Below, in pieces: positions 3,001 to 40,186 of a stretch of DNA of 40,186 bases (positions within the stretch are counted from its first letter, which is position 1; every line of letters begins with the position of its first letter). Under the pieces are notes generated by a model that saw only the letters and a program-made list of their open reading frames with translations, was not told the DNA's origin and searched no databases. The translations under genes and the position numbers were made by a program. Source of the stretch: Opitutaceae bacterium (lineage in GTDB: Bacteria > Verrucomicrobiota > Verrucomicrobiia > Opitutales > Opitutaceae); assembly GCA_018667915.1 (NCBI GenBank), contig JABIRI010000337.1:1-40186 (forward strand), in the 5' to 3' direction.

Positions 3001-3117
3001 CGCGGCGTAGGCGCCATCGTGCTCTTTGGCCTGCTCTTCACCAGCCTCATCACCCTCACGTTCCTCCCCGTCCTGCTCGTAACAGTGCTCAAGTGGATCG
3101 GACCGAAGGCGGGCTGA
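1..3117 (+). CDS. RND-family efflux permease, 5' end cut by window edge
   Basis: Inner-membrane proton-driven RND pump subunit, probably working with a periplasmic adaptor and an outer-membrane channel. The reading frame is open from base 1, and the first residues (TLLTVVLLIVCLFGVL) look like the end of transmembrane helix 1 before the usual porter-domain start (VPVQMIPDLEI). About 1038 codons are visible against roughly 1020-1060 for the family, so only some 10-20 N-terminal residues are missing. Two RND halves are visible, each a large periplasmic loop followed by a helix block. The helix-4 motif reads GMTVDNTIVVLEAIE, with one Asp where HAE-1 pumps usually have two, so substrate class (hydrophobic drug or metal) is uncertain. 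The conserved helix near the C-terminus (LLGTVVNNPILIVEE) is present. No partner gene follows; an adaptor gene may lie upstream of the window. Confidence 0.93.
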   Translation, partial: TLLTVVLLIVCLFGVLAALRVPVQMIPDLEIRTISVVTSWPGATPQDVEKEILIEQEEYLRSIPNLQRIVSSASTGRAEIELEFPFGTEINDALVRVNNALSQVPAYPENVDEPRLLTSSFSNNAFLHFGISPLEGNPRQLDMTLMRDYVDDYVRTRLERAPGVSQVNLSGGAERQIQIMIDPEKLASRGLTLTQIRNAIRERNRDRSGGDIDTGKRRYLIRTISRFDSPEELGQLIVAQRGDTQIRLQDVAEVRLHHAEVRGDRRFAGVPILLASIQRETGANVIDVRAAVLDAVVEVNRELLGPAGMKMELFNDDVQYVEASIANVWTNLSLGAVLAAFVMFLFLRSVPLTLVGILGIPICTIAAFLGLFIAERTINVISLAGVAFAIGMTVDNTIVVLEAIEIERRRGLGPFKAAIAGLRRVWTAVLASTATTVLVFVPVLFVQEEAGQLYSDIAIAISASIVLSMIIAVTLVPAATARLNFAPRALKGADPAPAPFKQSFIALVHWLVATARRRTVFIVGTIAFTGTALFVLTPPAEYLPEGEEAKTFARMIAPPGYSLEAMKEVAAKVEAKFVPQVNADPADYAAGRTDVPPLNRFLLIVNTGSLTAIVTTHDPGDIDALMVVLSDYFKSFPGMRAFAARGSIISSNDGGTRSVNLEISGSNLPEIYTTALTAYRRAEAVFENPQIDSSPSNLVLGQPLVEIRPRWDRAAEFGFTNTEFGYALAALADGAYVDEFFYEDNKIDIYLYSSEVSNRQIGTLGEMSIHTPRGGVLPVSALADIVETVDTDAIRRVDGRRTVTLNIIPPRSIALETAVEIVRNEVVGYMHENGEIPPAVTASLSGASDQLEATRTSLGSNFIVSIVLCFLLLVVIFTHWGYPFIILFTVPLGIAGGIIGLWLFNVFGAALPFIGLKAISQPFDMITMLGFLILLGTVVNNPILIVEETLANLRAGATSTAAAVEDALASRLRPIMMTTITTVCGLAPLVLIPGAGTELYRGVGAIVLFGLLFTSLITLTFLPVLLVTVLKWIGPKAG

Positions 3118-23472: not shown

Positions 23473-25473
23473 TCAGATCACCCCGGGCCTGAGTGCCAGC
23501 ATGCGATTGGCCCACAACTCTCGGATCTCCGGCAACACTGCGGCCACCGCCCCCAAGGTCAGGCCCGCCGCTGCTGCAAGGTTGGCCAAGGGTCGGCGAC
23601 CATCGGTCTCGCCGAGCAACCGATAAGCCTCCGCCGAGAGCTTAGCCTGCTTCCCGTGATGGTAGTTGAAGCTCAAGCCATAACGCCATGTCGGACTCGC
23701 CGCCCCGCCACCACGCTCCGCCTCCAGCTTGACGGTCACCGGGAGTGTCACGACCACGTTTAACCATGCCTCGTCACCGGTCGGCGTCTTCTTCAGCACG
23801 AGCCAATCTCCCACCACCAAGGCGTTTAAGTCGGTCGTAAGAAATGCGACGACCGCGTCATCCACCGAATCGATGATGGGTTCGGCGTGGTTGTTATACG
23901 AGGTGTTCAACAACATCGGCACGCCCGTTCGATCACCAAATGCCTTAATCAAATCCCAGTAGCGCGCGTTGCCGTCCTGCTCCACGGTCTGCACCCGCGC
24001 CGTGCCATCCACATGAGTCACCGCACCAAGTTCGTCCCGCTTCTCGGGCTTGACCTTCAAAATGACACTCATCGTCGGAAAGGTCTTTTGGGTGGGCGTC
24101 GTCACGAAGTAGTCATCCACGTGCTCCGCCAAAACCGACGGCGCAAACGGCCGGTAAGCCTCCCGTTTTTTTACCATGCGGTTGATAATATCCTTATTTT
24201 CCGCCGGTCGCGGGTCGGCCAAAATACTGCGATTGCCCAACGCCCGTGGGCCAAACTCCGACCGGCCCTGCACCCAACCGATCGCCTTGCCGTCCGCCAG
24301 AAGATCTGCCGCCCGACCTACCGCATCGTCGCACCGCTCGATCGTCACAAAGTCAGACCACGTCTGCAGCGCCAGCTCGATCTTCGCGTCATCACCGATA
24401 TCCGTGCCAAAGAAAACATGTCGCAGGGGTTTGATTACCGTATCCGGCACCAACTGTAATTGCACGGCCAGCGCCGCGCCCCACGCGCAACCCGCGTCAT
24501 GCGCTGCCGGCTGAACAAACAACCGCTCAAAACCACTTTCGTAGAGCACCCGCCCGTTCAGCGAACAATTGTGCGCCACACCTCCCGCCAGACACAGATC
24601 AAGATGACCCGTTTTCTTTTGAAAGTGCGTCAACACATGCAGACCGATCTGCTCCGTCGCTTCCTGTAACGCCGCGGCCAAATGCTGGTGCGTCTCGGTA
24701 AACGGCGTGCCTTTGCGTCGGGGCGGCATGATCTGAAAGAGAGACCGCACTCGGTCTAAATGCAGTCGATAATCCCCCTCGGGTAACAATTCGTAAAAGG
24801 TGCTAAAAAGCGCGCGATACCGCGCCGGGTCACCATAGGGCGCCATGCCCATGACCTTGTATTCATCGAACATTTCGTAACCCAAAAATCGGATCACGTC
24901 GCGATAAAGGTAACCCAGCGAATGTTCCTCGGTAAACGAATGCAACGGCGTCATCCCTCGCCCACGACCATCGTAAACCACCCCCGAGATGCCCTCGCCT
25001 TGTCCGTCGAGCGTGACGACCAGCGCCTCGTCGTATCCCGACAACGCATAAGCACTCACCGCATGTCCCGTGTGGTGATCGCAAAAATGAATCTTCGCTG
25101 CGTCCAGCTCGTGGCCCAACTCATCGCGAAACAGTCGCTGCACCATGCCGCGTGGAGTAGGCAGCTCCGTCTGCGAAAGGTCCGCCAGATGCAGCGTTTC
25201 CAAAACTCGTTTCACATAGGGCTCGGTCGCGTAAAATACGACCGCATCCAGTTGCTCCGGCCCGATACCCGCCGTTTCCAAACAAAACCGCAGCGCCTGG
25301 TGCGGACGCTTGTTGGTGTGCTTGATACGATTGAGGCGCTCCTCCTCGATGGCCGCGACCACTTCACCGTCGCGCAATAAGACCACTGCCGCGTCGTGAA
25401 TAAAATCGTAGGGCAGCGCATGGGTATCTTCATGCACCCGATCCAACCCGCCAGTGAAGCCGAGAACCCACAT
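23473..25473 (-). CDS. NodU/CmcH-type O-carbamoyltransferase with extra C-terminal domain
   Basis: Transfers a carbamoyl group from carbamoyl phosphate to a hydroxyl, here most likely one left by a ketoreductase of the adjacent polyketide synthase. From the start at 25473 it has 666 residues. The N-terminal Kae1-like domain (about 1-385) carries H26 in FIHDAA, EEERLNRIKHT, the metal-binding D132-HHTGH-137, CLAGGVAHNCSLN, and H325-D326. The C-terminal carbamoyltransferase domain (about 395-560) has GRSEFGPRALGNRSI and LNTSYNNHAEP. About 100 further residues (567-666) are not part of the usual enzyme and end in a helical stretch. The start lies four bases after the thioesterase stop, with GGAGG inside the thioesterase's last codons. 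Last gene of the PKS operon; no minus-strand terminator is obvious. Confidence 0.93.
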   Translation of the reverse strand: MWVLGFTGGLDRVHEDTHALPYDFIHDAAVVLLRDGEVVAAIEEERLNRIKHTNKRPHQALRFCLETAGIGPEQLDAVVFYATEPYVKRVLETLHLADLSQTELPTPRGMVQRLFRDELGHELDAAKIHFCDHHTGHAVSAYALSGYDEALVVTLDGQGEGISGVVYDGRGRGMTPLHSFTEEHSLGYLYRDVIRFLGYEMFDEYKVMGMAPYGDPARYRALFSTFYELLPEGDYRLHLDRVRSLFQIMPPRRKGTPFTETHQHLAAALQEATEQIGLHVLTHFQKKTGHLDLCLAGGVAHNCSLNGRVLYESGFERLFVQPAAHDAGCAWGAALAVQLQLVPDTVIKPLRHVFFGTDIGDDAKIELALQTWSDFVTIERCDDAVGRAADLLADGKAIGWVQGRSEFGPRALGNRSILADPRPAENKDIINRMVKKREAYRPFAPSVLAEHVDDYFVTTPTQKTFPTMSVILKVKPEKRDELGAVTHVDGTARVQTVEQDGNARYWDLIKAFGDRTGVPMLLNTSYNNHAEPIIDSVDDAVVAFLTTDLNALVVGDWLVLKKTPTGDEAWLNVVVTLPVTVKLEAERGGGAASPTWRYGLSFNYHHGKQAKLSAEAYRLLGETDGRRPLANLAAAAGLTLGAVAAVLPEIRELWANRMLALRPGVI

Positions 25474-25477
25474 GGTC

Positions 25478-25891
25478 TTAGCTTCCTCCCTCTTCCAACC
25501 AGCGGGTAAAGACGACCGGAAAAGGCTTGCGCTCAAGTGTCTGCAAATCGATCGCGACGTGTTCCGTCACCGCGATTGCGACCAGTTTATCACCCGCGCT
25601 CAGATTGATCACGCGATAGTTCAGAGTGAAACTATCCGGCCCGGTGGACGTCCGCGTAAACTCGATGCGCATTCGGTTACCGCTTTGCAACGGTCCCAGA
25701 TATTGCGCCTGACACTTCGCCACCGGAATCAGGGTGCGGTGCTCCCCGAAAAACGTGCGCAACTCCATACCCGCAGCCGCAAGGCTGGCCTCATAGGCCT
25801 CGTGGCACATGGAGAGGTAGTTCGAAAAATAGACAAAGCCCGCGCCGTCGACATCGGCAAAGCGGATCAAACGTTCATAGGGAGTATTCAT
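25478..25891 (-). CDS. Stand-alone hotdog-fold thioesterase (4HBT-like)
   Basis: Acyl-CoA/acyl-ACP thioesterase of 137 residues, normal for 4-hydroxybenzoyl-CoA-thioesterase-like single hotdog proteins. The start at 25891 lies 37 bases after the PKS C stop; an upstream in-frame codon at 25948 would overlap PKS C. The catalytic region reads RFADVDGAGFVYFSNYL: D15 is at the position of the active-site Asp of the DxxGxxY group, and the HEAYEASL helix follows. No PKS in the window has a C-terminal thioesterase domain, so this enzyme is the best candidate to hydrolyse the finished chain from the PKS C carrier protein; it could instead be a proofreading enzyme. It would work as a cytoplasmic tetramer, by family. 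Confidence 0.9.
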   Translation of the reverse strand: MNTPYERLIRFADVDGAGFVYFSNYLSMCHEAYEASLAAAGMELRTFFGEHRTLIPVAKCQAQYLGPLQSGNRMRIEFTRTSTGPDSFTLNYRVINLSAGDKLVAIAVTEHVAIDLQTLERKPFPVVFTRWLEEGGS

Positions 25892-25928: not shown

Positions 25929-28900
25929 TCACGCTTGGGCGGCTTCAATCGCCGCCGCCAATTCCGCTATGGTCGGTCCTTCGTAAAGGGAGGAGGAAGG
26001 AAGATTCACGCTAAACTCTTTCTTCACGCGAGAGATCACTTGAACGCCGATAAGCGAATCGCCACCGAGTTCGAAAAAGTTATCATGCACGCCAACTTCC
26101 TGGATGCCCAGCAGGCTCTGCCAGGCCTCGGCCAGAGTCGTTTCCAACGGCGTCGAAGGGGCTTCGTAGGCGTTGCCCAGTGCCGGGCGTGGATACCGTT
26201 TACGCGTCGCCTGCTTCCCCGAGTCCATCGGTCCCGCTTGCGCCACTTGCCCACGCAGGTGATCGAGAATCGGCTGCAAAGGCCGCGGTGAAACCACAAT
26301 CTGGGATGCCCCAGCGTTAAGAATCCGCGCCAGCGCCTGAAGCCCCTCGGCCGGCGTAATGGAGTCCGCGGTCGCGCTGCCCGTCGCTTCACTCGACTTG
26401 GCGGTCGGTTCCATCAATGCGAGTGCCGGCGGCGTGATCGACAGCACCAGTTTACCGATGTGACGCGCACCCGCCATCGTCTGGAACGCTTCACTCACCT
26501 CCGTGATCGGGAACACATCCTTCGGCAGCGGCTTGAAGGTGCCCGCCCGGAAGTAGCCCATGATTTCGTCCAGCATCTCCCGCACGTAAGCCGGTCGCTG
26601 CAGCATTACCGGACCTAACTCGATGGCCATAAACGACAGGTTGTTCGCGAAAGGCCGCAGGCCCATCTGGCTGTTTTGATAAATATCGCGGGCGCCGATT
26701 TCGATGAACCGACCAAACTGCCGCAATACTCCCAAACCCTTCGTGATGAATTCGCCCGACAAGGAGTTCAGCACCACATCGACGCCTTCGCCGTTGGTCG
26801 CCGCCATCACGTCGTCGGCAAAGGACAACGATCGCGAATCAAAGACATGTTGCACGCCCAACGCCTTGACGTAGTCGCGCTTCTCTGGGCTGCCCGCCGT
26901 CGCATACACTTCCGCGCCGACGCGTAATGCACACTGAATCGCGGCCAAGCCCACACCACCCGCCGCCGCGTGGATGAGCACCCGCTCGCCCTTCGACAGA
27001 CGTCCCTGCACGTGCAACGCATAGTGCGCGGTGAGGAATACCAGCGGGATCGTAGCTGCGTCCTCAAAACTCACGCCTTCCGCCAACGGAGCGGCCGCAT
27101 TCTCCACGACCGTGACAAAACCTCCGAAACACTTCGCGCCCATCACAATCACCCGGTCGCCCGGAGCAAAGGCCGTCACGTCGGGGCCAACCCGCACAAT
27201 GACACCCGCCCCTTCACCACCAAAGCCTTGGGCCAACCCGGCGTCATGCTCCGAGGACAACATACCGAGCCCGCGCAATACGTCCTTAAAATTCAGGCCG
27301 GCCGCGTGCATCTGAATCTCGACTTCACCCGCGCCGGGAGCCACCCGCTCGCCCGCCGCTAAATTGAGGGTATCGAGTTGCCCCATCGTCGACATGTTGA
27401 CTTGGAAATTCTCCGCACCCGGGAGGAATGGAAAGCGCTCCGGTGCGCCGCCGGCTGCCGCCGACACGCTGCTGGCTTCTACTTTCTTCAGCAGATAATC
27501 CTCCATCACCACCAGTTCCTCGCCCGCTTCGTCGCAGATCAATACTTCGAAATTCGCGGTCGGTTTTCCGCTCATCAAATCGTCGTGTTGCTTAATGTAG
27601 CTGCGAATCCGCTGTGGCAGCGGGCCAAATACGCGCACGGTGCCATGCGAAAACGGAATATAAACACTCGCAGTTTTGAACGGGAAAAACGCCGTCAGGT
27701 CCACCATGCCCGGATGCAGCGGATGGTCCGCCAAATCCCCCACGTAAGCGTCGGGCAGTTTTTGGGCTGCGATGCCTTCACGATCACCCAGCTTCACCCA
27801 CTCCGGTGTCATCCAACGCGGGCCAACTCGCAGGTGATCCGCTTGCCGCAGCAACTCGCCGGGCACGATCTCCGACTCCGCATCGACGTCATGATGCTCC
27901 ACGGTGCAACGTGCCGCCATCGCCTCGATGTCATGCGTCCGGCGTGCCACCGTCGTTCCCGGTTCCAAGTGACCGCGGGAATGCTCCAGCCAATCATCGC
28001 TACCCGGTGCCGCCTGGCTCTTGATCGTAAAATCAAATCCGTCGCCGGCCTTGGTCAGCACCACGTGCAACTCGCGCACTTGGTCGGGCTCCACCGAGAA
28101 GGTCGCCATGATAAACATGTCGGAAAACGTAAAACTCTCGGTCTCCACGTGCCGGGCAAATGCAGCGCGCGCCAACTCCAGATAGGCCGTGCCGGGTAAA
28201 GTCGGTTTGCCGTAAAGTTCATGATCTGTAATGAACCACGGTCCGGCCTCACTGAATTCGCCGACATAATGAAAACCGTCCGCCGTTTCGCGCACCCGCT
28301 GAAATAGCGGATGCTCGATCGTCTTAAACTCTACGGCCGCGGCCTGGGCCGCTTGAGCCTTCGGGCGGGCCACCGTTTCAACCGCCATGCCGACTTCGGC
28401 CCACGCATCCCAGTTGATCGAAATCGTCGTCGGTCCCCCAGCGCGCTCCGCGGCTTGGGCCAGCACATCGAGACACGAGTTGGCCCCGCAATAATCCACC
28501 TGACCAAACCCACCCGTAACCGCCGCAATCGACGAAAAGTGCACCAAGAAATCCGGATGATCAGCGCCCAATGCGGCGGTCAACACCAGTGCCCCCTTGA
28601 TCTTCGCATTTATCACCGCCGTCGCCGTTGACTTCTCCTTCAGTTGGATGACGCCGTCGCCCGCCACACCGGCCGCATGCAACACGCCGTCAATCCGGCC
28701 AAAGTGCGCCCTCGCCTCCGTCACCGCCGCGGTCATCGCCGCCTCATCCGCTGTGTCTGCGGTCACGAGCAACACCTCGGCGCCCGCCGCCTCCAATTGT
28801 TGCACACTGGAAATTCGTCGGCTCACGCGGTCTCCGCTATCGTTCGAGGCCAGCCACGTCGCCCACTTGTCTCTCGACGGCAAAGCCGATCGATTTGTCA

Positions 28901-31900
28901 ACACCAGACGAGCCTGCACCGTGCGCGCCAGCCAGGCGGCGACCTTCAATCCGATACCGCCCAAACCGCCCGTAATCAGGTAGACTCCGCCCGTCTTGAG
29001 CAAAGGTAACACGGGCCCTTCTGCCTCCAATCGGCGCGCCTCGAACGCTTGCACGTGGCGTTGCCCTTCGCGCCAGGCCACCACCGGTTCAATCGGCAAT
29101 GCTCCCAGTTCCGTGACAACCGCTTTCGCCATGTCCGCCGGCGATCCGGCCACATCGATTGCGACACTCGCCACTTCGGGATATTCCTGCGCAATCACCT
29201 TACTCGGACCAATCAACGTGGCCCGCTCCGGCCCGACGATCTGCTCTCCGTTGACACTTTGTAGTTGTGTGGTAACTACGCCGAGTCGCACCGCTGCCGT
29301 GAGGTTTTCGTCCCCCAAAGCCTGGGCCAAAAACAAGAGACTATAAAAACCTTTGGTCTGAGTATCTTCGAACGCCGCGAGTGCATTGCCCTCAGCGGCC
29401 TGCAGATTCCAGCCATGGACGATTTGCGAAGGGAACCGGGCATCAGTCCGCAACGCCGCCAGCAGCGTGACAAAATCTTGTGGATTCGTTGGATTAATCG
29501 TGAATCGCCCCGCGTCCGCCGAAGCGAAGTCCGCACCACTTTCGACGAGAGTAACCCGACCTCCGGCCCCTTCGACCTGCGACACCAAGGCGTCACGCCA
29601 GTCACTCGCATCCGCCAACACCAACCACTCCGGATCGCCCGCCGCCGCATTGGGCGCCAGCGCCGTCTTGTGCCACACCGGTGCATAAAACCAATCCGCC
29701 AAATCCGCCTGCTTGCCAAACGGCTTCTCCTCACTCGCCGCCACGGGTGCAAGCGGGGAAACCGCTTTGCGCTGCACCCAGTAAGACTGCCGATCAAAGG
29801 GGTAAGTTGGCAGAGAAACCCGCCGGCGCTTCTCGTCACCCGAAAAGCCCTGCCAGTCGATCGCCGCGCCTTGGATCCACAGCTTGCCCAGCGCCGCCAT
29901 CAAAAACACGGAATCCGAAGTCTTCTCCAAGGGATGACGCAATGAGGTCAACGGCGCGCCCGCCGGCCCGATCTCCGGACGCTGGCGTGAGAGTGAACTC
30001 AGGGTGCGCCCCGGACCTACTTCCAGTCCGACTCGCGTTCCATCTTTCAACAACTCCGCGACGCCATCTGTAAAACGCACCGCCCCCCGCAGGTGCTGGG
30101 CCCAATAAGCAGGATCAACCGCCTGCTCCGGCGTGATCCAAGTGCCCGTCAAATTTGAAACGTAGGGCAAGGTCGGCGCATTGCGTTCCACCTTCTCCAC
30201 CAACGCGGTGAACTCCGGCAAGATCGGATCCATCATCCGCGAATGAAACGCGTGCGAAGTCTGCAACCTACGTGCCTCCACCCCACGGCCTTTGAGCACC
30301 GCTTCCAACTCTGTCACCGCCTCATGCGAACCCGAAGCCACGCAGGACCCCGGTGCATTAACGGCGGCCAGTGATAGATTCTCGCCCAAGAGCGGCGCGA
30401 TCTCGGACTCCGGCAATGGCACTGCTAACATCGATCCCGCCGGCAGACTCTGCATCAAGCGACCGCGGGCCGCTACCAAACCCAAGGCATCCTCCACCGC
30501 AAAGACACCCGCGAGGGTCGCCGCAACGTATTCGCCGATACTGTGGCCGATCATGGCCTCGGGCTCCACGCCCCAGCTTTGCCACAACTTCGCCAAGGCA
30601 TACTCGACCACAAACAGCGCCGGCTGCGTGAGCGCAGTCCGCTTCAATTTTTCGGTCGCCGCTTCAGTATCACCAGAATTCGGATACAAGATCGTGCGCA
30701 GATCGAGCCCGAGGTGCGGCTCCAGCAACTCGGCGCAATGATCCACTTCCGACCGATATACCGGCTCGGATTCGTAAAGCTCGCGTCCCATCTCGACATA
30801 TTGGGAGCCCTGTCCCGGAAACAAAAATGCCACGGGCGCCTCGGTCTGGCCCGCCGAATCCCCGGCGTGGCTTTGCCCGGGCTTCTTGTCTTCCAACGCC
30901 GCGACGATTTCCGCCGCATCCCGACCGACCGCAATCCGCCGCTGGCCAAAGGCCTTCCGGCCATTCTGCAACGTATAGGCCACGTCGGCCAGATTCGCAT
31001 CTGGATGCTGGTTTAAATGCTTGATGAGTTGATCCATCGCTGCGCTCAACGCCTCCCCGGAACGGGCGGACAATACGACCAGTTGCACCGCTCGTGATTC
31101 ACCCGAGGGCTCGCGCTCCGGCGGTGCTTCTACCACGGCATGGGCATTGGTTCCGCCCACCCCAAGCGAACACACCAGCGCCCGCCGAGGTGTAGCACTG
31201 CTATCCCACGTGCGCAGCTTCGTGTTCACATAAAACGGGCTGCTCTCAAAATCGATTTTGGGATTCGGCGTCGTGTAATGCAGCGACGGCGGAATGATCC
31301 CCTCGCGCACCACCATCGCGGTCTTCATCAACCCCGCCACGCCCGCAGCCCGGTCGAGATGTCCAAAGTTGGTCTTGGCTGAACCGAGGGCGCAATACTG
31401 CCGCTCTTTCGAACCCGCCGCGCCAAAGGCAGAGGTCAATGCCGTCACTTCGATCGGATCACCGATGAGCGTCGCCGTGCCATGCGCTTCTACAAAACCA
31501 ATCGATTCTGGAGCAACTTCCGCCCGCGCAATCGCCGCCGAGATCGACTCAATCTGTCCCTGCACGCTCGGAGCGGTATAGCCCGCCTTAATTGCCCCGT
31601 CGTTGTTGATCGCCGAACCCCGAATGACCGCGTGGATCTCATCGCCGTCTGCTAAAGCCCGGTCCAGCCGCTTCAGCACGACCACGCCCAAGCCGTTGCC
31701 AAACACCGTGCCGCTGGCCTCCGCATCGAAGGTGCGACAATGCCCGTCCCGGGACTTTATGCTGCCTTCTTCGTAAGAATAGCCGGAAACTTGTTCGTTA
31801 TTCAGTGACACACCGCCAGCCAACACCATCTCGCAATCTCCGCCCAAAATGCTCTGGCACCCCAGATGCACCGATACCAGCGAGGTCGAGCAATACGTCT

Positions 31901-32450
31901 GCACCGTCACACTCGGCCCTTTCAGGTTCAGCTTGTAGGATACAATCGTCGCGAGCGAATCGCGGTCATTGAACAGAGTAAGTGCCGAAATTCCGCCCTG
32001 CCCAGCCGTCAACTCATCGATCTGTGGCATCAGGTTCGCCATGAAATAATTGCTCAGATTCGCCCCCATGAACACTCCGATCCGCCCCGCAAATCGCTCC
32101 GCATCATAGCCGGCGTCTTCCAGCGCCTGCCAGGAACACTCCAACATCAACCGAATCTGCGGATCCATCACCTCCGCCTCATGGGGCGTAAACCCGAAAA
32201 ACGCCGGATCAAACTGCGCGGTATCCCCGACATGAGGGTTCGCCCGCACAAAATTCGCATTGGCGATCAACTCCGGCGGAAAACCCGCCGCCGCCATCTC
32301 CTCTTCATCAAAAAAGCTGATGGATTCGATTCCATTGCACAAATTTTGCCAAAACTCGGCCCGAGTAGTCGCGCCCGGATACCGGAGTTGCATACCAACA
32401 ATAGCGATGTGCTTGGTGGGGTCGAGGGAAGGACGGGACGGCTGACTCAT
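25929..32450 (-). CDS. Type I PKS C: KS-AT-KR-DH-ER-ACP (non-canonical order)
   Basis: Single-module polyketide synthase of 2173 residues; ATG at 32450 begins close to the KS, and the frame's earlier start at 32504 is less likely. Domains: KS (about 14-440; C187 in TYCSTSLV, then EAHGTAT and GHLD), AT (about 539-817; S637 in GHSIGEY, HAFHS 733-737, the malonyl-type motif with catalytic H736), KR (structural half from about 925; NADPH loop TGGLGGIG near 1160; Y1320 in YCGAN), DH (about 1377-1655; H1410 in HELYGKPTLP), ER (about 1698-2004; AAAGGVGLAAIQ near 1827) and ACP (S2132 in GGDSL). All catalytic residues are present, so it should fully reduce its beta-carbon. DH and ER come after KR, whereas the usual order is DH-ER-KR. 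It is followed by the thioesterase, so it is probably the last extension module. Confidence 0.95.
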   Translation of the reverse strand: MSQPSRPSLDPTKHIAIVGMQLRYPGATTRAEFWQNLCNGIESISFFDEEEMAAAGFPPELIANANFVRANPHVGDTAQFDPAFFGFTPHEAEVMDPQIRLMLECSWQALEDAGYDAERFAGRIGVFMGANLSNYFMANLMPQIDELTAGQGGISALTLFNDRDSLATIVSYKLNLKGPSVTVQTYCSTSLVSVHLGCQSILGGDCEMVLAGGVSLNNEQVSGYSYEEGSIKSRDGHCRTFDAEASGTVFGNGLGVVVLKRLDRALADGDEIHAVIRGSAINNDGAIKAGYTAPSVQGQIESISAAIARAEVAPESIGFVEAHGTATLIGDPIEVTALTSAFGAAGSKERQYCALGSAKTNFGHLDRAAGVAGLMKTAMVVREGIIPPSLHYTTPNPKIDFESSPFYVNTKLRTWDSSATPRRALVCSLGVGGTNAHAVVEAPPEREPSGESRAVQLVVLSARSGEALSAAMDQLIKHLNQHPDANLADVAYTLQNGRKAFGQRRIAVGRDAAEIVAALEDKKPGQSHAGDSAGQTEAPVAFLFPGQGSQYVEMGRELYESEPVYRSEVDHCAELLEPHLGLDLRTILYPNSGDTEAATEKLKRTALTQPALFVVEYALAKLWQSWGVEPEAMIGHSIGEYVAATLAGVFAVEDALGLVAARGRLMQSLPAGSMLAVPLPESEIAPLLGENLSLAAVNAPGSCVASGSHEAVTELEAVLKGRGVEARRLQTSHAFHSRMMDPILPEFTALVEKVERNAPTLPYVSNLTGTWITPEQAVDPAYWAQHLRGAVRFTDGVAELLKDGTRVGLEVGPGRTLSSLSRQRPEIGPAGAPLTSLRHPLEKTSDSVFLMAALGKLWIQGAAIDWQGFSGDEKRRRVSLPTYPFDRQSYWVQRKAVSPLAPVAASEEKPFGKQADLADWFYAPVWHKTALAPNAAAGDPEWLVLADASDWRDALVSQVEGAGGRVTLVESGADFASADAGRFTINPTNPQDFVTLLAALRTDARFPSQIVHGWNLQAAEGNALAAFEDTQTKGFYSLLFLAQALGDENLTAAVRLGVVTTQLQSVNGEQIVGPERATLIGPSKVIAQEYPEVASVAIDVAGSPADMAKAVVTELGALPIEPVVAWREGQRHVQAFEARRLEAEGPVLPLLKTGGVYLITGGLGGIGLKVAAWLARTVQARLVLTNRSALPSRDKWATWLASNDSGDRVSRRISSVQQLEAAGAEVLLVTADTADEAAMTAAVTEARAHFGRIDGVLHAAGVAGDGVIQLKEKSTATAVINAKIKGALVLTAALGADHPDFLVHFSSIAAVTGGFGQVDYCGANSCLDVLAQAAERAGGPTTISINWDAWAEVGMAVETVARPKAQAAQAAAVEFKTIEHPLFQRVRETADGFHYVGEFSEAGPWFITDHELYGKPTLPGTAYLELARAAFARHVETESFTFSDMFIMATFSVEPDQVRELHVVLTKAGDGFDFTIKSQAAPGSDDWLEHSRGHLEPGTTVARRTHDIEAMAARCTVEHHDVDAESEIVPGELLRQADHLRVGPRWMTPEWVKLGDREGIAAQKLPDAYVGDLADHPLHPGMVDLTAFFPFKTASVYIPFSHGTVRVFGPLPQRIRSYIKQHDDLMSGKPTANFEVLICDEAGEELVVMEDYLLKKVEASSVSAAAGGAPERFPFLPGAENFQVNMSTMGQLDTLNLAAGERVAPGAGEVEIQMHAAGLNFKDVLRGLGMLSSEHDAGLAQGFGGEGAGVIVRVGPDVTAFAPGDRVIVMGAKCFGGFVTVVENAAAPLAEGVSFEDAATIPLVFLTAHYALHVQGRLSKGERVLIHAAAGGVGLAAIQCALRVGAEVYATAGSPEKRDYVKALGVQHVFDSRSLSFADDVMAATNGEGVDVVLNSLSGEFITKGLGVLRQFGRFIEIGARDIYQNSQMGLRPFANNLSFMAIELGPVMLQRPAYVREMLDEIMGYFRAGTFKPLPKDVFPITEVSEAFQTMAGARHIGKLVLSITPPALALMEPTAKSSEATGSATADSITPAEGLQALARILNAGASQIVVSPRPLQPILDHLRGQVAQAGPMDSGKQATRKRYPRPALGNAYEAPSTPLETTLAEAWQSLLGIQEVGVHDNFFELGGDSLIGVQVISRVKKEFSVNLPSSSLYEGPTIAELAAAIEAAQA

Positions 32451-32530
32451 AGAATAGAAGCTAGGTGGAAAGGGGACTAGAGAGGTCGCACTCGAACGGG
32501 CCAAGCTCAGATACGAATTATTACAATTCT
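32451..32530. promoter_or_regulatory. AT-rich gap with small hairpin between PKS B and PKS C
   Basis: The only real gap inside the PKS operon (80 bases); other junctions overlap or are under 40 bases. Right after the PKS B stop the minus strand reads GAATT-GTAAT-AATTC (32529-32515), a five-pair hairpin, within an AT-rich island. TGTAATAAT there also resembles an extended -10 element, but I find no -35 at a normal distance. No Shine-Dalgarno is seen before PKS C. Confidence 0.35.
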
Positions 32531-35500
32531 TTAAAGAGGCCTACTCGTCAGCTCCGCCACGACCGGTCCGAGCAACCGCGGTGTCGGGGCATCATAAAAT
32601 GCGGCCACCGCCAATACGGTTCCCGTGCGGCGCTTGATCGCCGCAATCGCCTGTAAAGCACTCAACGAATCGCCCCCCAGTTCAAAAAAATTGTCCTCCG
32701 CACCCACCTGCTCCAAGCCGAGCACCTCCGCCCATTGTTCGGCCAGATCGGCTTCCACTCCCGCCGCCGGAGCCGTAAATGGCGTCCTCAAAGCCGGCCG
32801 CGGATAGCGCTGGGCCACCGTCCTGGTTTCCGCTCTGTCGTTCGCTTCCTGCGCCCGAAAACGATCGGGCAACGCCGCCGTCGAAACCAGCACCTTCGCC
32901 CGTGGACGAGCCAGCAATCGCCGTAACACCTCCGCGCCTTCGCTCCCCGATATAGCCCAATCTGTGCCTTGCGCTTCCGCAGCACCCATCCCTATATCCC
33001 GCCACAAATCCCAATTCACCGCCATGGCCGGAACCCCGTGCCGAACCAGCGCCTCCGCCTGGGCATCAAGAAAAGCGTTGGCCGCCACGTAATCGCTCTG
33101 GCCCGCGCTACCCGCCCACACCGCCAGGGAGGAACACAGCAGCACAAAATCAAACGACCGCCCGTCACTCGCTTCGGCCAATCCAGCCCCGCCGCCGACT
33201 TTCGGCGCCCACACCGTCGCTGTCTCCTCGCGAGTCTTCCGCACCGCGATCGTGCGACCCGCCACCCCCGCCGCATGGATCACCCCATGCACCGCACCCC
33301 ACCGCTCCTCCGCCGCCGCAAAAATATCCTGCCAAGCCTTCGTCGAGCTCACATCCAGCGCGAGCGGCAACACCTCGGCGCCCTTCGCCTCCAACGCCGC
33401 GATAACCTTCCCTTTTCCGGTCCCGCCCCGACGCCCCACCAACACCAAACGCACCCCCGTCGTCTCTGCCAGGGCATCCGCCAACGCCAATCCCATGCCT
33501 CCAAATCCGCCGGTGATCACATAAACGCCCGCCGCTCGGATTCCATCCAACTCCGGCGTTGGCATGCTCAGCCGCTCAAAATGTGGCACCCATCGCCCGC
33601 CGCCACGCCACGCCGCCAAGGGCTCCGCTCCCGCCAACTCCGCTTCCGCCGCCAAGGCTTCGACGGTCGCCGCCTCAGACGCGTCGCTCGCCAGATCTAC
33701 CTGCCGCACCTTCAGAAACGGTAGTTCTTTGGGTAAAACCTCCGCCAATCCCGTGGCCAACGCAGACGCCGGCTCCACCGCATCACTCGCCAGCACTCCC
33801 TGCCCCGCTCGCGTTGCTAGGATGACCCGCAAGGGTTCAACCCACCCACCGGCCACCAACGCCGGCGCCAAACCAATCCCGTCATGAAACGCATCCGTCG
33901 CCGCAACTACGCCGCCCGAGGTTAAAAACGTCGTCGTCACCACGCCAGCGATTCCCCCGCTATCCGCTGCCGCCTGCAAAATCTCCTCCCACTGAGCGCC
34001 CGGCTCACGTTCCAGCACGCGCCGACCCGCTGTCCGCCACGTGCTCGCCAGCGCAGCACCAACTCCTGCGGAATCCGCCGTCACGATCCAAGTCCCCTCA
34101 ATCGAGGAGCCACTCACCCGTGCCGTCGATTGCTTCCAGACCGGCGCGTAAAACCAATCATCCAATGGCGCCCGCGACAACGCCTGCCCGGTGACCTCAC
34201 CCCGCTCTGGATCCAACCAAAATCGCTGACGCTCAAAGGGGTAAGTGGGTAACGGAACCCGCACTACCGCTCCCTCCCCCCGAAACCGTTTCCACGACCC
34301 CGGCACACCCGCAATCCACAAGCGTCCGAGCGTGTTCAACAGCGTCACTTCATCTGACTTGCGCTCCCGCGCATCCGGCAACGACGCCCACACACTGCGC
34401 GCATCGCCCGCCGCCAAATTCGGTCGGGTCAGTCCCGCCAGTATCCGTCCCGGCCCGACTTCGATGAACACCCGGTTGGGTTCGGTCGCTAACTCCTTAA
34501 GACCGTCCGCAAAATATACCGTCTGCCGCAACTGCCGCGCCCAATAACGCGGATCCGTCGCTTCCTCCGCCGTGATTCTCCGTCCGGTCACATTCGAAAT
34601 GAAAGGGATCGCCGGAACCGTCAGCTTCACGTTCCTCATCTCCGCGAGAAACGGCTCCACCATCGGCTCCATTAACTGCGATTGAAACGCGTGCGAGGTC
34701 GGCAGCTGCCGCGCCATCACACCGGCTTCTCGCAAGGTGTCCTCCAAGGCAGCGATTTCATCGCTCGGCCCCGCCACCACACAGGCCCGTGGACCATTCA
34801 CAATCGCCAGCGACAGGGTCGTCGTAAGATACGGTTTCACGTCGGCCGGCGCTAGCGTGACCGCCAACATCGCCCCTTCCGGCAACGCCTGCATCAGACG
34901 TCCCCGCGCTGCCACCATCCGCACCGCATCAGCTAGCGAAAATACGCCCGCTACACAACCCGCGGTCACCTCTCCCAAACTGTGCCCCAACATCACTGCC
35001 GGTTTGATCCCCCACGCCTGCCACTGCTGCGCCAACGCATACTCAACCGCAAACAACGCCGGCTGCGCCAATTCCGTCCGCCGCAACCGCGCCTCCACCT
35101 CCGCCCGATCCGCCCCTTCCGGCGGATACATCACCACGAGTAAATCAATTTCAAGTTGGGCCTGAAACAGGCTAACGCACTCATCCAAAGCAGCTCGAAA
35201 TACCGGCTCGGTGGCATACAGTTCCCGGCCCATGTCGATCGTCTGAGCTCCCTGCCCCGGAAACAAAAAGGCCACTTCACGCGTTCCTGCTTCCACCTCA
35301 CCCGTTGCCACGCGCGTCGGGTCAAGTTTCGCCAACGCTTCCACCGCCGCCGCGGTATCCGTCGCTACCACCACGCGACGATGCTCCCACGCCCGCCGAC
35401 CTTCCCGCAACGACTGCGCCACTGCCCCCAATGGGAGATCCGGCTCCGCCGACAGCGTTTTCGTCAAAGCTTCTGTAGCCGTCTGCAACGCCGCCTCCGT

Positions 35501-36871
35501 GCGAGCGGAAATGACTAGCAACTCGTGTTTCCGGGTCGGCCCTACTACCGGCGCCGCCGCCGGCGCCTCCTCCAAAATCACGTGCGCATTCGTTCCTCCC
35601 ACCCCAAATGCACTCACCCCCGCCCGCCGCGGTCCACCCTCAGCCGGCGCCGCCCAAATCGAATGCTCAGCCTGCACCCGAAACGGACTACCTGCGAAAT
35701 CGATTTTGGGATTCGCTTCTTCAAAATGCAGCGTCGCCGGCAACTCCCGGTGATGCAACGCGAGCACCGTCTTGATGAACCCCGCAATTCCACCCGCCGC
35801 ATCCAGATGCCCGATATTCGACTTCACCGATCCCAGTGCGCAATACCCCGTGCGCGCCGAACTCTCACGAAAGGCCTGAGTCAACGCCGTCACCTCGATC
35901 GGGTCGCCCAACGGCGTCGCCGTGCCATGCCCTTCCACGTAGCTAATGTCATCCGCGCTCACGCCGGCATTGGCCAGCGCCTCGCCAATCACGTCAGCCT
36001 GCCCGCGCACCGCCGGTGCCGTGAACCCCGCCTTCACCGCCCCGTCGTTGTTGATCGCCGACCCTTTTATCACCGCCAAAATACGGTCCCCGTCCTTCAC
36101 CGCATCCACTAACCGGCGCAAGGTCACTACCCCCACGCCACTGCCAAACACCGTGCCCCGGGCGTTCGCCGAAAATGGCCGGCAATGGCCGTCCGGTGAC
36201 ATCACCCCGTCTTCCTGATACATGTAGCCACTTTCCTGGGGCAAGCTCACCGCCGCCCCGCCCGCCAAAGCCGCGTCACACTCAAAATTCAACAGTGATT
36301 GCACCGCCACGTGCACCGCCACCAACGACCCCGAACACGCCGTCTGCAATGAATACGCCGGCCCACCGAGGTTCAGCTTATAGCTCACTCGCGAAGTAAG
36401 AAAATCCGAGAAGTTACCTGTGCCCAACACCGCTCCTGCCGTTGCCGCACCCGGGTGCCCCTGCAGATTCTGCAACAGATAGGAACTGGTCGAAGACGCG
36501 CCAAACACGCCCACCAACCCATCAAACTGATCTGCCGAAATTCCCGCTCGCTCCAACGCCTCGTGGGCCACTTCTAAAAACAAACGATGCTGCGGATCCA
36601 TCACTTCCGCCTCCCGCGGAGGAATACCAAAATACGCCGCATCAAATTGATCTACGTCCGCCAACCGCGGTCGCGCCTTCACATAGTTTCGATCCGACAA
36701 CTGGTCTTGACTCACCCCAGCCGTCCGCAACTCATCGTCGCTGAAAAAGTGAATCGACTCCACTCCGCCACACAGGTTCGCCCAAAACGTCTCAACGTCC
36801 GGCGCCCCGGGAAAACGACCGGCCACCGCCGTCACCGCCACCGCCTGATCATCAATCTTTTCCTGGCTCAT
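32531..36871 (-). CDS. Type I PKS B: KS-AT(H to Q)-KR-ACP
   Basis: Single-module synthase of 1446 residues. KS (about 10-430) has C179 in TACSGSL, VEGHGTATP and SNIGHLD. AT (about 534-811) has LFPGQGAQ, S631 in GHSLGEV and the AARGRLM arginine, but its malonyl motif reads HAFQS (727-731). The fourth residue is the catalytic His of the family; here it is Gln730, coded CAA. KR (about 1118-1291) has TGGFGGMG and Y1261 in YVAAN. ACP has S1402 in GGDSL. There is no DH or ER, so the module should leave a hydroxyl, a possible carbamoylation site. It ends right after the ACP with no docking tail. The start overlaps the PKS A stop by four bases (ATGA). AT activity is doubtful; the rest looks functional. 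Confidence 0.93.
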   Translation of the reverse strand: MSQEKIDDQAVAVTAVAGRFPGAPDVETFWANLCGGVESIHFFSDDELRTAGVSQDQLSDRNYVKARPRLADVDQFDAAYFGIPPREAEVMDPQHRLFLEVAHEALERAGISADQFDGLVGVFGASSTSSYLLQNLQGHPGAATAGAVLGTGNFSDFLTSRVSYKLNLGGPAYSLQTACSGSLVAVHVAVQSLLNFECDAALAGGAAVSLPQESGYMYQEDGVMSPDGHCRPFSANARGTVFGSGVGVVTLRRLVDAVKDGDRILAVIKGSAINNDGAVKAGFTAPAVRGQADVIGEALANAGVSADDISYVEGHGTATPLGDPIEVTALTQAFRESSARTGYCALGSVKSNIGHLDAAGGIAGFIKTVLALHHRELPATLHFEEANPKIDFAGSPFRVQAEHSIWAAPAEGGPRRAGVSAFGVGGTNAHVILEEAPAAAPVVGPTRKHELLVISARTEAALQTATEALTKTLSAEPDLPLGAVAQSLREGRRAWEHRRVVVATDTAAAVEALAKLDPTRVATGEVEAGTREVAFLFPGQGAQTIDMGRELYATEPVFRAALDECVSLFQAQLEIDLLVVMYPPEGADRAEVEARLRRTELAQPALFAVEYALAQQWQAWGIKPAVMLGHSLGEVTAGCVAGVFSLADAVRMVAARGRLMQALPEGAMLAVTLAPADVKPYLTTTLSLAIVNGPRACVVAGPSDEIAALEDTLREAGVMARQLPTSHAFQSQLMEPMVEPFLAEMRNVKLTVPAIPFISNVTGRRITAEEATDPRYWARQLRQTVYFADGLKELATEPNRVFIEVGPGRILAGLTRPNLAAGDARSVWASLPDARERKSDEVTLLNTLGRLWIAGVPGSWKRFRGEGAVVRVPLPTYPFERQRFWLDPERGEVTGQALSRAPLDDWFYAPVWKQSTARVSGSSIEGTWIVTADSAGVGAALASTWRTAGRRVLEREPGAQWEEILQAAADSGGIAGVVTTTFLTSGGVVAATDAFHDGIGLAPALVAGGWVEPLRVILATRAGQGVLASDAVEPASALATGLAEVLPKELPFLKVRQVDLASDASEAATVEALAAEAELAGAEPLAAWRGGGRWVPHFERLSMPTPELDGIRAAGVYVITGGFGGMGLALADALAETTGVRLVLVGRRGGTGKGKVIAALEAKGAEVLPLALDVSSTKAWQDIFAAAEERWGAVHGVIHAAGVAGRTIAVRKTREETATVWAPKVGGGAGLAEASDGRSFDFVLLCSSLAVWAGSAGQSDYVAANAFLDAQAEALVRHGVPAMAVNWDLWRDIGMGAAEAQGTDWAISGSEGAEVLRRLLARPRAKVLVSTAALPDRFRAQEANDRAETRTVAQRYPRPALRTPFTAPAAGVEADLAEQWAEVLGLEQVGAEDNFFELGGDSLSALQAIAAIKRRTGTVLAVAAFYDAPTPRLLGPVVAELTSRPL

Positions 36872-39800
36872 GCCCCACCCCTTTCCCGCCGCTGTCGACG
36901 CAACGCGCCGCGCCGCGCTCGCGGCTCATCCGCCGGCCTAGCCTCTTTTCCCACTACCTCTGGGACCAACCGGACCGCCACCTCGGCGACCGTCGGCGTG
37001 TCTAAAAATTCCGCGACCGTGATCTCACTGCCAAACCGTGCATTGACCCGCGCCACAATCTGCACCGCCGACAACGAATCTCCGCCTGCTTCAAAAAAGT
37101 TTTGATCTAGTCCTTCCGCTGCCACCCCCAAGGCCTCTAACCAAATCTCGGATAACGCGCGTTCGGCCTCCGCCCGAGAAAAGGAAGGTGGCGGCACGGG
37201 CTCGGGACTCGAACCCAGCGCGGCGGCAGGCGTGTCCTGCCCTAATCCGCCCGGGCTACCCAGCGCGCGTAAATCTCCTGGCACCACCACCCAGGTGCCT
37301 GCTTCGCCGCGCGCGACGATCCGTCGCAAAATTTCCGCTGCCTTGATGCCGTCCATGCCGCCGTCTCCCGATTGGCCACCCCAAGCAACACTCGTCCACG
37401 CCGTGCCATCTGCCCGTGCTGCCGACTGCTCGACCATTGCCTCCATGGTCGCATTGGCAGCCGCATAAGCGGCCAGACCCGCCCCGCCCACCACGGTCAC
37501 CACTGAAGAGATTGCGATCCGAAAATCCAAATCCTTATGCCCCAAAGCCGCGTCCAACGCCCGCCAACCGTCGACCTTCGCTGTGGCCAACAAATTCATC
37601 ATGGCCGCATCGGTTTCAGCCACCGCTCGCACCGATTCTGGTCCCGTCAAACCCGCCGCATGAATGACTCCATGCACCGCCCCCCAGCGTGTTTCCGCGT
37701 CGGTCACCACGACCCGCATCGCCTGCGCATCGGCCACATCCCCCGCCACCGTTAAAATTTCCGCCCCGAGTGTCTCAATTTTACGGATACGCTCTTCAAC
37801 GCCCGCGCCGCCTCGCCGGCCGATCAATACTAACCGCGCCCGACATGCCCGCGCCAATTCCTCAGCCAGAGCCAACCCCAATCGTCCGAATCCACCCGAG
37901 ATTAAATACACTCCACGCTCTCGCCAAGTTCCCGCCGTTGCTACCGGCACCGGCGACCAATCCCGCACCCAGCGTTGCCCTTTCGCCCATGCTACCACGG
38001 CCTCGTCGCTGGGTGACCCAAGTTCGCGGCGTGCCGCTTCCAACCTTGCCGGGCCGTCAATCCCGCCCGCATCCACATAACGGATACTCAAATCGGGAAA
38101 TTCATGGCGCACCGCCAAGGCAAAACCCGCCACCGCCCGCAGTTCCGGCGCCGTGATTGCCTCTCCGACGGCCCCCAATACTCCGTCCACCAAAATCACC
38201 AGTTCCCGGACCGTGCCTTTCACGGCCAGATCCTTCACGCGCTGAATCGCGTCACCCGCGCTTACCTCCGCCAGATCCAAAATTTCACCGCAACCACTCT
38301 CGGGCCACGACCGGGTAACCCGCCAGGCGGCGCGGTGGGTCCAGGTTTCAATCCCCTTCGACGGAACGACTGCTTCAGGCGGTTTCGCCACTCCCGGTTC
38401 CACCCAAAAACGCGTCCGCTCAAATGCATATGTAGGCAATGCCACCGTCTGCCCGCTCGTCACCTCAGTCTCTGGCCAATTTCCTTCGGTTGATTCCGCC
38501 CAGTCCCGAACCGCTTCCGGCGCATCTGTCGGTGCGACCGCCGGCGCCCGTAGCACCGCGATCGCTTCTACCTGCGAACTGGCGCGCACTACTCGCCGCA
38601 CCGCGAACGCCCGTCTCCCTTGCTGCAATGTAAAGGCAACGTCCGCCATTCGCACAACGGGATGCGACTCCAACCAATCGGCCAACTGCGCCACCATCCG
38701 ACTCAGGGCCGGTTCGGTCCGAGCCGAGACCGGCAACCAAAACGTATCTGCCTCACCGCCTACGATCGACTTGCGCTCCGCCGCCTGCTCCAGCACCACG
38801 TGCGCATTCGTGCCTCCAATGCCAAAGGAACTCACGCCCGCCCGCCGTGGCCCCGAATTCACGGGCCAAGCCATCGTCGCCCCGCTCACCACGAACGGAC
38901 TCCGATCCAACTGCGCCGCCCCATTCGCTTGCGTAAAATGAACTGTCGGTGGGACCGACCCATGACGCACCGCGAGGGCCGCTTTGATCAACCCCGCCAC
39001 TCCCGCCGCCGCATCGAGGTGACCAATATTCGACTTGATCGATCCCAACGCACAACGCTCGCCGTCGGCCTCATCAAAAACCTGCCGCAACGCTGCCACC
39101 TCAATGGGATCTCCCAATGGCGTCGCCGTCCCATGCGCCTCAACGAATCCCAAGCTAGACGCCTCCACCCCCGCCGTCGCCAGAGCCATGCTAATGACTT
39201 CCGCTTGCCCATCCACTGCCGGCGCCGTGAATCCTACCTTGCCGGCCCCGTCATTGTTCACCGCCGCGCCGCGAATCACTGCTACGATATTATCGCCCGC
39301 CGCCACGGCATCCTCCAAACGCCGCAGCGCCACCACCCCGCAACCGCTCGCTGGCACCGTGCCCTGCGCCGCCGCATCGAACGGCCGACAGTGCCCGTCC
39401 GGCGAAGCCACGCCCCCTTCGGTATAACGATAACCTTCCCCGTGCGGCACCTTGATCGACACCCCGCCCGCCAAGGCCAGATCGCACTGAAAATTTTGCA
39501 GACTTTGACACGCCAACTGCACCGCCACCAATGAGGTGCTGCACGCGGTCTGAACCGTCACGGCCGGTCCCCGCAGATTGAGCGCGTATGCCATACGCTG
39601 GGTCAAAGCGTCCTTGTCGCTGGCAATGGCCGCGCCAAACACCCCCACCTGATCCAGTAACCGCGGATTGGATACGAGATTATACAACAAATAGGTATTC
39701 AGGCTCGCCCCACCGAACACGCCTACACTGCCGTCAAATCGCGACGGATCGATGCCCGCGTTCTCGAGCGCCGTCCACCCGCACTCAAAGAACACCCGAT

Positions 39801-40059
39801 GCTGCGGATCGAGCACTTCGGCTTCCTTCGAATTTACCCCAAAAAATGCCGCGTCAAAACAGTCGTGATTTGCGATCTGACCCGACACCGGCACGAAACG
39901 CGAATCGCTACCTGACGGCGCGTCCCCGCGGGTCAGCCCCTCTCGTCCGGCGCATAAAAGCTCCCACAACGCATCCACGTCCGCTGCCCCGGGAAAGCGA
40001 CCTGCCATGCCCACGATGGCAATCGCGTCCGCCGGCAAGTCGTTCATTGCGTCACTCAT
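36868..40059 (-). CDS. Type I PKS A: KS-KR-ACP, AT domain absent
   Basis: Single-module synthase of 1063 residues, about 300-400 shorter than an AT-containing equivalent. KS (about 10-430) is complete: C173 in TACSTSLV, EAHGTATP and SNIGHLDAAAG. The KS-AT linker continues (FTLQQGRRAFAVRR), but there is no GQGxQ, no GHSxG and no HAFH-type motif. Within about 50 residues the post-AT linker appears (LPTYAFERTRFW, about 536-548). KR follows (about 717-895; SGGFGRLG, Y865 in YAAAN), then ACP (S995 in GGDSL). A basic tail of about 30 residues ends RARRGALRRQRRERGGA. It needs an acyltransferase in trans, from another protein of the line or elsewhere in the genome. Start and stop both sit in ATGA overlaps with neighbours. 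Confidence 0.93.
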   Translation of the reverse strand: MSDAMNDLPADAIAIVGMAGRFPGAADVDALWELLCAGREGLTRGDAPSGSDSRFVPVSGQIANHDCFDAAFFGVNSKEAEVLDPQHRVFFECGWTALENAGIDPSRFDGSVGVFGGASLNTYLLYNLVSNPRLLDQVGVFGAAIASDKDALTQRMAYALNLRGPAVTVQTACSTSLVAVQLACQSLQNFQCDLALAGGVSIKVPHGEGYRYTEGGVASPDGHCRPFDAAAQGTVPASGCGVVALRRLEDAVAAGDNIVAVIRGAAVNNDGAGKVGFTAPAVDGQAEVISMALATAGVEASSLGFVEAHGTATPLGDPIEVAALRQVFDEADGERCALGSIKSNIGHLDAAAGVAGLIKAALAVRHGSVPPTVHFTQANGAAQLDRSPFVVSGATMAWPVNSGPRRAGVSSFGIGGTNAHVVLEQAAERKSIVGGEADTFWLPVSARTEPALSRMVAQLADWLESHPVVRMADVAFTLQQGRRAFAVRRVVRASSQVEAIAVLRAPAVAPTDAPEAVRDWAESTEGNWPETEVTSGQTVALPTYAFERTRFWVEPGVAKPPEAVVPSKGIETWTHRAAWRVTRSWPESGCGEILDLAEVSAGDAIQRVKDLAVKGTVRELVILVDGVLGAVGEAITAPELRAVAGFALAVRHEFPDLSIRYVDAGGIDGPARLEAARRELGSPSDEAVVAWAKGQRWVRDWSPVPVATAGTWRERGVYLISGGFGRLGLALAEELARACRARLVLIGRRGGAGVEERIRKIETLGAEILTVAGDVADAQAMRVVVTDAETRWGAVHGVIHAAGLTGPESVRAVAETDAAMMNLLATAKVDGWRALDAALGHKDLDFRIAISSVVTVVGGAGLAAYAAANATMEAMVEQSAARADGTAWTSVAWGGQSGDGGMDGIKAAEILRRIVARGEAGTWVVVPGDLRALGSPGGLGQDTPAAALGSSPEPVPPPSFSRAEAERALSEIWLEALGVAAEGLDQNFFEAGGDSLSAVQIVARVNARFGSEITVAEFLDTPTVAEVAVRLVPEVVGKEARPADEPRARRGALRRQRRERGGA

Positions 40060-40186
40060 TCAGAGGTCCCCCGCGCATTCCGTCGACGCGCCAACGCCGC
40101 CCGCTGCCGGGCCGCCCGGTCCTGCACCGTCGTCTTCGTCGTCGTGACTTCCACCGAACCATCTTGATCATCCAAATGCGCCGCCA
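40056..40186 (-). CDS. C-terminal tail of an upstream operon gene, probably PKS or NRPS/PKS (partial)
   Basis: Only the last 42 codons are inside the window. The frame is fixed by the TGA at 40058-40056 that overlaps the PKS A start codon (ATGA), as at the PKS A/PKS B junction. The visible part begins AAHLDDQDGSVEV and ends with a basic stretch, DRAARQRAALARRRNARG. It resembles the Arg-rich tail of PKS A and tails often seen after the last carrier domain of PKS/NRPS proteins. No catalytic domain is visible, so the assignment as a megasynthase subunit rests on context. The other two frames are either closed or give an Arg-rich sequence without a stop before PKS A. Confidence 0.65.
   Translation of the reverse strand, partial: AAHLDDQDGSVEVTTTKTTVQDRAARQRAALARRRNARGTSE

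Follow-up and report, generated by a model that had tools for sequence, protein, structure and literature searches.

The window, by which we mean the whole 40,186-nucleotide stretch analysed here, is one contig (C213) of an Opitutaceae genome, and it carries on its minus strand the tail of an assembly line: PKS A, PKS B, PKS C and then a carbamoyltransferase (Table 1). The gene just before PKS A ends as an NRPS tail, its counterpart in a related genome (G029) being the C-terminal end of an NRPS, which makes PKS A a post-NRPS module. Contig C86, which has a partial ACP near its end, was considered as the source of that upstream gene and set aside: it holds a different gene, and contig C3 fits by synteny. 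ATGA stop/start overlaps at 36868-36871 (PKS A/PKS B) and 40056-40059 (NRPS tail/PKS A) suggest translational coupling around PKS A.

Table 1. Features of the window that bear on PKS A, its neighbours and their AT domains (positions are those of the window)
Feature	Position	Strand	Basis	Remark
Upstream NRPS tail	40056..40184	minus		C-terminal 42 residues and stop; rest of gene on C3 by synteny
PKS A, 1063 aa	36868..40059	minus	open frame and Pfam	KS - KS/AT linker - post-AT linker - KR - ACP, without AT
KS of PKS A (aa 11-427)	38779..40029	minus	12-row alignment
KS/AT linker domain of PKS A (aa 428-503)	38551..38778	minus	Pfam and model
AT-absence junction of PKS A (aa 504-540)	38440..38550	minus		one short helix in model
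Post-AT linker motif of PKS A (aa 541-552)	38404..38439	minus		LPTYAFERTRFW
KR of PKS A (aa 716-894)	37378..37914	minus	Pfam
ACP of PKS A (Pfam aa 968-1028)	36976..37158	minus		attachment Ser in AGGDS
PKS B	32531..36871	minus	Pfam	KS-AT-KR-ACP
AT of PKS B	34337..35269	minus		HAFQ; Gln730 (codon 34682-34684) at catalytic-His position
PKS C	25929..32504	minus	Pfam	KS-AT-KR-DH-ER-ACP
AT of PKS C	30000..30827	minus		complete Gln/Ser/Arg/His set (HAFH)
Carbamoyltransferase	23473..25536	minus	Pfam	adjoins PKS C in related cluster too

The rest of the line lies on other contigs. C148, C263, C3 and C213 are collinear with a single contig of the related genome (G029:C37, from 99749 down to 34597), and read from sequence the line is a single FAAL-PKS-NRPS-PKS cluster of roughly 60 kb spread over these four contigs, whose joins are placed by synteny, the contig ends tried being without sequence overlap. 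At its head Pfam gives AMP-binding - PP-binding - KS and then, on C263, KS-AT-monooxygenase-KR-ACP; the best NCBIfam matches of the AMP-binding part are fatty acyl-AMP ligase models, at scores below their cut-offs. After this FAAL-PKS comes a second AT-less module (C263:9125-13702), which has a KS, a linker, a luciferase-like monooxygenase, a KR and an ACP, with no PF00698 match, and whose G029 orthologue is likewise without an AT. NRPS proteins, two of which on C3 were scanned with Pfam, and a PhyH-type gene follow.

In G029, where the cluster sits on one contig, three of the five PKS modules have an AT. The line is a mixed cis/trans PKS-NRPS system in which modules with and without an AT stand alongside NRPS modules. 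The sequence-only reading had already called it mixed, and the ATs of PKS B and PKS C, the AT-less PKS A and the collinear G029 cluster bear this out; its description of the line as otherwise cis-AT was too strong, in view of the second AT-less module and of the catalytic His missing from the PKS B AT.

Several further observations concern the line and its surroundings. The AT-bearing upstream neighbour of the second AT-less module (L005) has the same kind of luciferase-like monooxygenase. The usual order of reducing domains is DH-ER-KR; PKS C has them as KR-DH-ER before its ACP, and no thioesterase is among its Pfam matches. Farther out on C148 lie a PPTase-family gene and a thioesterase-family gene, and the frame of an AcrB-type efflux pump occupies positions 1-3117 of the window and runs off the left contig end.

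Anatomy of the AT-less junction in PKS A

In PKS A, Pfam recognizes both ketoacyl synthase halves, a CurL-like (aa 442-503) and a RhiE-like KS/AT linker, a KR and a PP-binding domain; PF00698 is absent in the same scan that returns it for PKS B and PKS C. The CurL-like match stops at aa 503 and the post-AT linker motif starts at aa 541, which leaves 37 residues between them; the equivalent part of PKS B is 360 residues long (aa 514-873). Neither six-frame profile searching across the genome nor a local AT HMM gave an AT at this junction. By its layout, in which KS, linker domain and post-AT linker are kept and the AT is gone, PKS A is confirmed as an AT-less (trans-AT type) module; a canonical cis-AT module has its AT within the module, and PKS A has none.

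The predicted structure agrees with this layout. An AF2 model of aa 1-720, built on the 12-row alignment, has a mean pLDDT of 70.8, with blocks at 83-93 over aa 441-550 and 84-90 over aa 501-550; the part beyond aa 556 is poorly predicted and was left out. The modelled linker domain consists of strands 440-446 and 487-493 and helices 449-465, 471-481 and 496-504, and past it a single 8-residue helix (515-522) gives way to coil that continues across the post-AT linker. The top Foldseek match is 4wky, the OzmN KS2 (E 6.5e-61, 578 columns), onto which aa 8-556 superpose with Z 52.1 and rmsd 2.3 over 532 aligned residues (VIA-align); 8cjh (ClbK) is level with it at Z 52.2. In the matches to KS-AT didomains, about 870 chain residues are spanned and about 510-530 aligned, so that the AT is skipped. 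The superposition search returned no AT-type matches, an absence that carries no weight on its own.

The sequence-only reading had described a module without an AT, absent cleanly at a domain boundary in a trans-AT-like anatomy and with no frameshift, and had named a divergent AT fold in aa 440-540 as the outcome that would overturn it. Pfam, the genome profile search, the local HMM and the AF2 model agree on the missing AT; the linker-to-linker layout matches the described boundary; and the frame is open over 1063 aa, with the same junction in both full-length orthologues found. No divergent AT fold appears at aa 440-540 in the model, and such a domain is ruled out by profile, local HMM and model. 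A frameshift or misassembly behind the absence is unlikely, as two orthologues lack the AT at the same place.

Orthologues, conservation and KS phylogeny

PKS A was searched against 141 genomes, its own included, with at most five candidates scored per genome, and 56 of the 141 gave some match at 1e-30. At least two full-length orthologues exist besides that of the own genome, G029:C37 (66% identity) and G032:C104 (61%), each from another genus, and in both the AT is missing at the same junction; rows L_G029 and B_G032 were left out of the junction comparison, L_G029 being AT-less by the local-HMM labelling instead. Among the orthologues, identity is 73-79% for the KS, 51-57% for the linker, 51-54% for junction plus post-AT linker, 64-71% for the KR and 66-74% for the ACP. 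The KS residues Cys173, His309 and His347 are invariant in the 12-row alignment, the KR residues Lys, Ser, Tyr and Asn, which we take to be the active-site residues, are common to all three orthologues, and the ACP attachment Ser (AGGDS) is kept in three of three.

This conservation bears on two alternatives in which PKS A adds nothing to the chain. One is that it is non-elongating and only relays the growing chain between the NRPS and PKS B. Its AT is missing, and hybrid KSs of this kind after an NRPS module are known, which lack a catalytic His (PMC9582728, in the part available). Against this, PKS A has Cys173, His309 and His347, all three invariant, and its KR and ACP motifs are kept; going by its residues, it falls outside the KS0 type, in which the catalytic His of the KS is missing, and we think a purely transferring role improbable. 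The other alternative is that the module is dead, so that the line makes nothing or skips PKS A. Loss of the AT together with loss of the neighbouring catalytic His could be decay, but the frames are open, the motifs are kept and identity is 61-66% across three genera, which leaves this account barely credible.

The catalytic His in question is that of the PKS B AT. In ATs this residue lies in an xAxH motif (PMC12895367, PMC4207774), and its role is stated in the available parts of these two papers and of PMC11907408. Of 43 ATs aligned (42 recovered from the fetched loci with the local HMM, matches under about 200 aa being dropped, and the FabD-size protein of the own genome), the three from PKS B orthologues have Gln in this column; the 40 others, which include related sequences and are not independent of one another, have His. 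In place of the xAFH of a malonyl-type AT, then, PKS B has HAFQ in three of three. The domain is otherwise well kept: AT identity between orthologues is 67-77% for PKS B, 76-79% for PKS C and 65% for the FAAL-PKS (one pair), with KS identities of 74-80% for PKS B and 79-86% for PKS C. That the PKS B AT is a decaying relic is unsupported, as its conservation nearly equals that of the PKS C AT; so well kept a domain may still be functional or have a structural role. Because two modules are AT-less and the PKS B AT lacks its His, a complete AT is present in two of the five PKS modules, one per PKS block.

The check by KS phylogeny that the sequence-only reading had proposed placed PKS A in a hybrid KS clade and left cis-AT and trans-AT lineage unseparated. 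In a first tree of 73 rows, whose bootstrap had not settled and eight of whose rows have no AT label because their frame ends soon after the KS, the PKS A KS falls within the hybrid clade (support 100/100), where AT-containing and AT-less KSs are mixed, as cis-AT and trans-AT kinds also are in the hybrid KS clade of NaPDoS2 (PMC9582728, in the part available). There it stands beside Opitutaceae cis-AT KSs (83/88), and the KS of the second AT-less module lies outside this clade. When PKS A was constrained to stand with two hybrid KSs that lack an AT, a quick tree of 72 rows scored 22 log units above the free search (p 0.757). In a reduced, more careful tree of 36 hand-picked rows from the 73 plus two PDB rows, which has low support and an unsettled backbone, the AU p values are 0.137, 0.134 and 0.096 for PKS A with AT-less reference KSs and 0.337 for PKS A with Opitutaceae cis-AT KSs. 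As none of the four groupings is rejected, we make no lineage claim for PKS A.

Other Opitutales, too, have KSs without an AT, going by a small local AT HMM whose labels are 'cis' and 'noAT' and which degenerate ATs can escape. Modules that keep the linker and post-AT linker lie at L117:7137-8822 (G091:C47) and L121:6243-7925 (G089:C16), the former on a contig that also has AT-containing modules. Other KSs (L111:14198-15886, L112:4708-6399, L113:9347-11038 and L123:4786-6477, in G001, G010 and G004) lack an AT and apparently the KS/AT linker domain as well; AT-containing modules occur in the same regions. At L119:13988-15685 (G063), sequence resembling a degenerate AT, missed by the local HMM, follows the KS linker.

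Candidate loaders for the AT-less modules

With its AT missing, PKS A must have its building block loaded by another enzyme, and we consider it very probable (roughly 0.85) that its ACP is loaded in trans. The sequence-only reading had likewise called for a loader in trans, in keeping with an AT that is absent by profile, HMM and model, and had listed the PKS C AT, a discrete AT outside the window and FabD. The search for a stand-alone AT that it had proposed shortens this list. Six-frame profile searching finds four PF00698 ATs in the own genome: those of PKS B, PKS C and the PKS on C263, and a stand-alone one on C321. The latter (320 aa, motifs GLSLG and AYHS) is of FabD size and adjoins a LepA-like gene. 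G029 and G032 likewise have one stand-alone AT frame each (391 and 308 aa), and beyond these single FabD-size proteins no dedicated discrete AT was found in the own, G029 or G032 genomes. The donor is accordingly to be sought among the ATs of the line or in FabD.

A dedicated discrete AT might still be hidden if each of the three genomes had an assembly gap at its gene. The own assembly, at 99% completeness, is in 361 contigs, with the cluster split over four of them. The G029 cluster, however, is on one contig, and its three ATs all belong to PKSs; elsewhere in G029 (95% complete) and G032 (100%), one discrete AT of FabD size each is all that was found, which makes a hidden gene highly unlikely.

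Among the donors that remain, the complete AT of PKS C is in our estimate the likeliest, at a little short of even odds. On this model PKS A would be an elongating hybrid module that takes over from the NRPS of the preceding gene, adds one unit to the chain and then reduces it; the PKS C AT, two proteins downstream in the same three-protein block, would load its ACP and would also serve PKS B, whose own AT has Gln for the catalytic His. Near the head of the line, the complete AT of the FAAL-PKS could in the same manner load the second module without an AT. More generally, we tentatively suggest that embedded ATs are shared, each block's complete AT loading its AT-deficient neighbours without any discrete trans-AT; jointly with such sharing, and just as tentatively, the His-to-Gln AT of PKS B could be a structural element or a modified transferase. 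That the line is active is itself assumed here. Sharing from PKS C is favoured by the one complete AT per PKS block and by the likeness of the ACPs within blocks (30-41% identity among A, B and C and 30% between L and F, against 15-22% across blocks), a likeness that may be mere common descent. Counting against it are the good conservation of the PKS B AT and the case of G089 (83% complete), which has a KS called AT-less and a FabD-size protein as the sole AT found.

The last observation speaks for FabD of fatty-acid synthesis, which could load AT-less modules, perhaps PKS B too, in trans. In the own genome, G029 and G032 alike, the only stand-alone AT found has the size of FabD. Six more Opitutales genomes in which KSs are called AT-less likewise contain a single AT with a frame of 316-363 aa, their remaining ATs being in longer frames and G089 showing no other. 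This explanation leaves the one complete AT per PKS block unaccounted for, though, and its comparative support is softened by the completeness of G089 (83%) and G004 (82%), by one G004 AT in a 697-aa frame, and by G063, whose AT-less call is doubtful given the AT-like sequence seen by eye past its linker. FabD is the main alternative donor, if less likely than not.

Known mixed lines and the bearing of this cluster

The nearest precedent for the missing ATs that we found in the open-access literature is the haliamide line of Haliangium ochraceum, a PKS-NRPS hybrid whose modules 2 and 5 have no AT (PMC6274090). As here, some of its modules have an AT, and AT-less module 2 follows an amino-acid module, as PKS A does; the available part of that account differs in proposing a stand-alone AT in the genome as loader, where here the only one is of FabD size, and mentions no His-less AT such as that of PKS B. 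The kirromycin line, as described in part in PMC5818483, also mixes cis-AT and AT-less modules with NRPS modules, but the discrete ATs KirCI and KirCII serve its AT-less modules and its cis ATs are confined to KirAVI.

The best matches to PKS A, by sequence and by structure, include ClbI, ClbK and ClbC of colibactin. The colibactin line uses ATs both in cis and in trans, and the discrete AT ClbG serves it. The oxazolomycin line, too, has a discrete AT. From it come OzmN KS2 (4wky) and OzmQ KS1 (4oqj). These, like PKS A and like the hybrid trans-AT subclass of NaPDoS2 (PMC9582728, in the part available), combine a hybrid KS with an AT-less module. We claim for PKS A and the Ozm KSs a likeness in layout and fold, and none in lineage. 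The mandelalide-producing symbiont we take to belong to the Opitutaceae. This verrucomicrobial symbiont has a trans-AT line with its own AT, MndO (PMC5698493, in the part available). Lines that mix AT-containing and AT-less modules number 473 of 8,799 catalogued, 351 PKS-NRPS and 122 PKS, in the accessible part of PMC10394414.

Mixed lines are thus already known, and what is unusual here is that no dedicated loader was found and that a His-less AT stands next door to the AT-less module. How AT-less modules are fed without a dedicated loader gene becomes a testable question, which this cluster narrows to two candidate loaders, and the conserved loss of the catalytic His in the PKS B AT gives a second handle on loading. 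If embedded ATs are indeed shared, the line would represent a stage between cis-AT and trans-AT architecture, maintained over three genera. The cluster bears on the conversion of cis-AT into trans-AT lines and on the engineering of lines with shared loaders.
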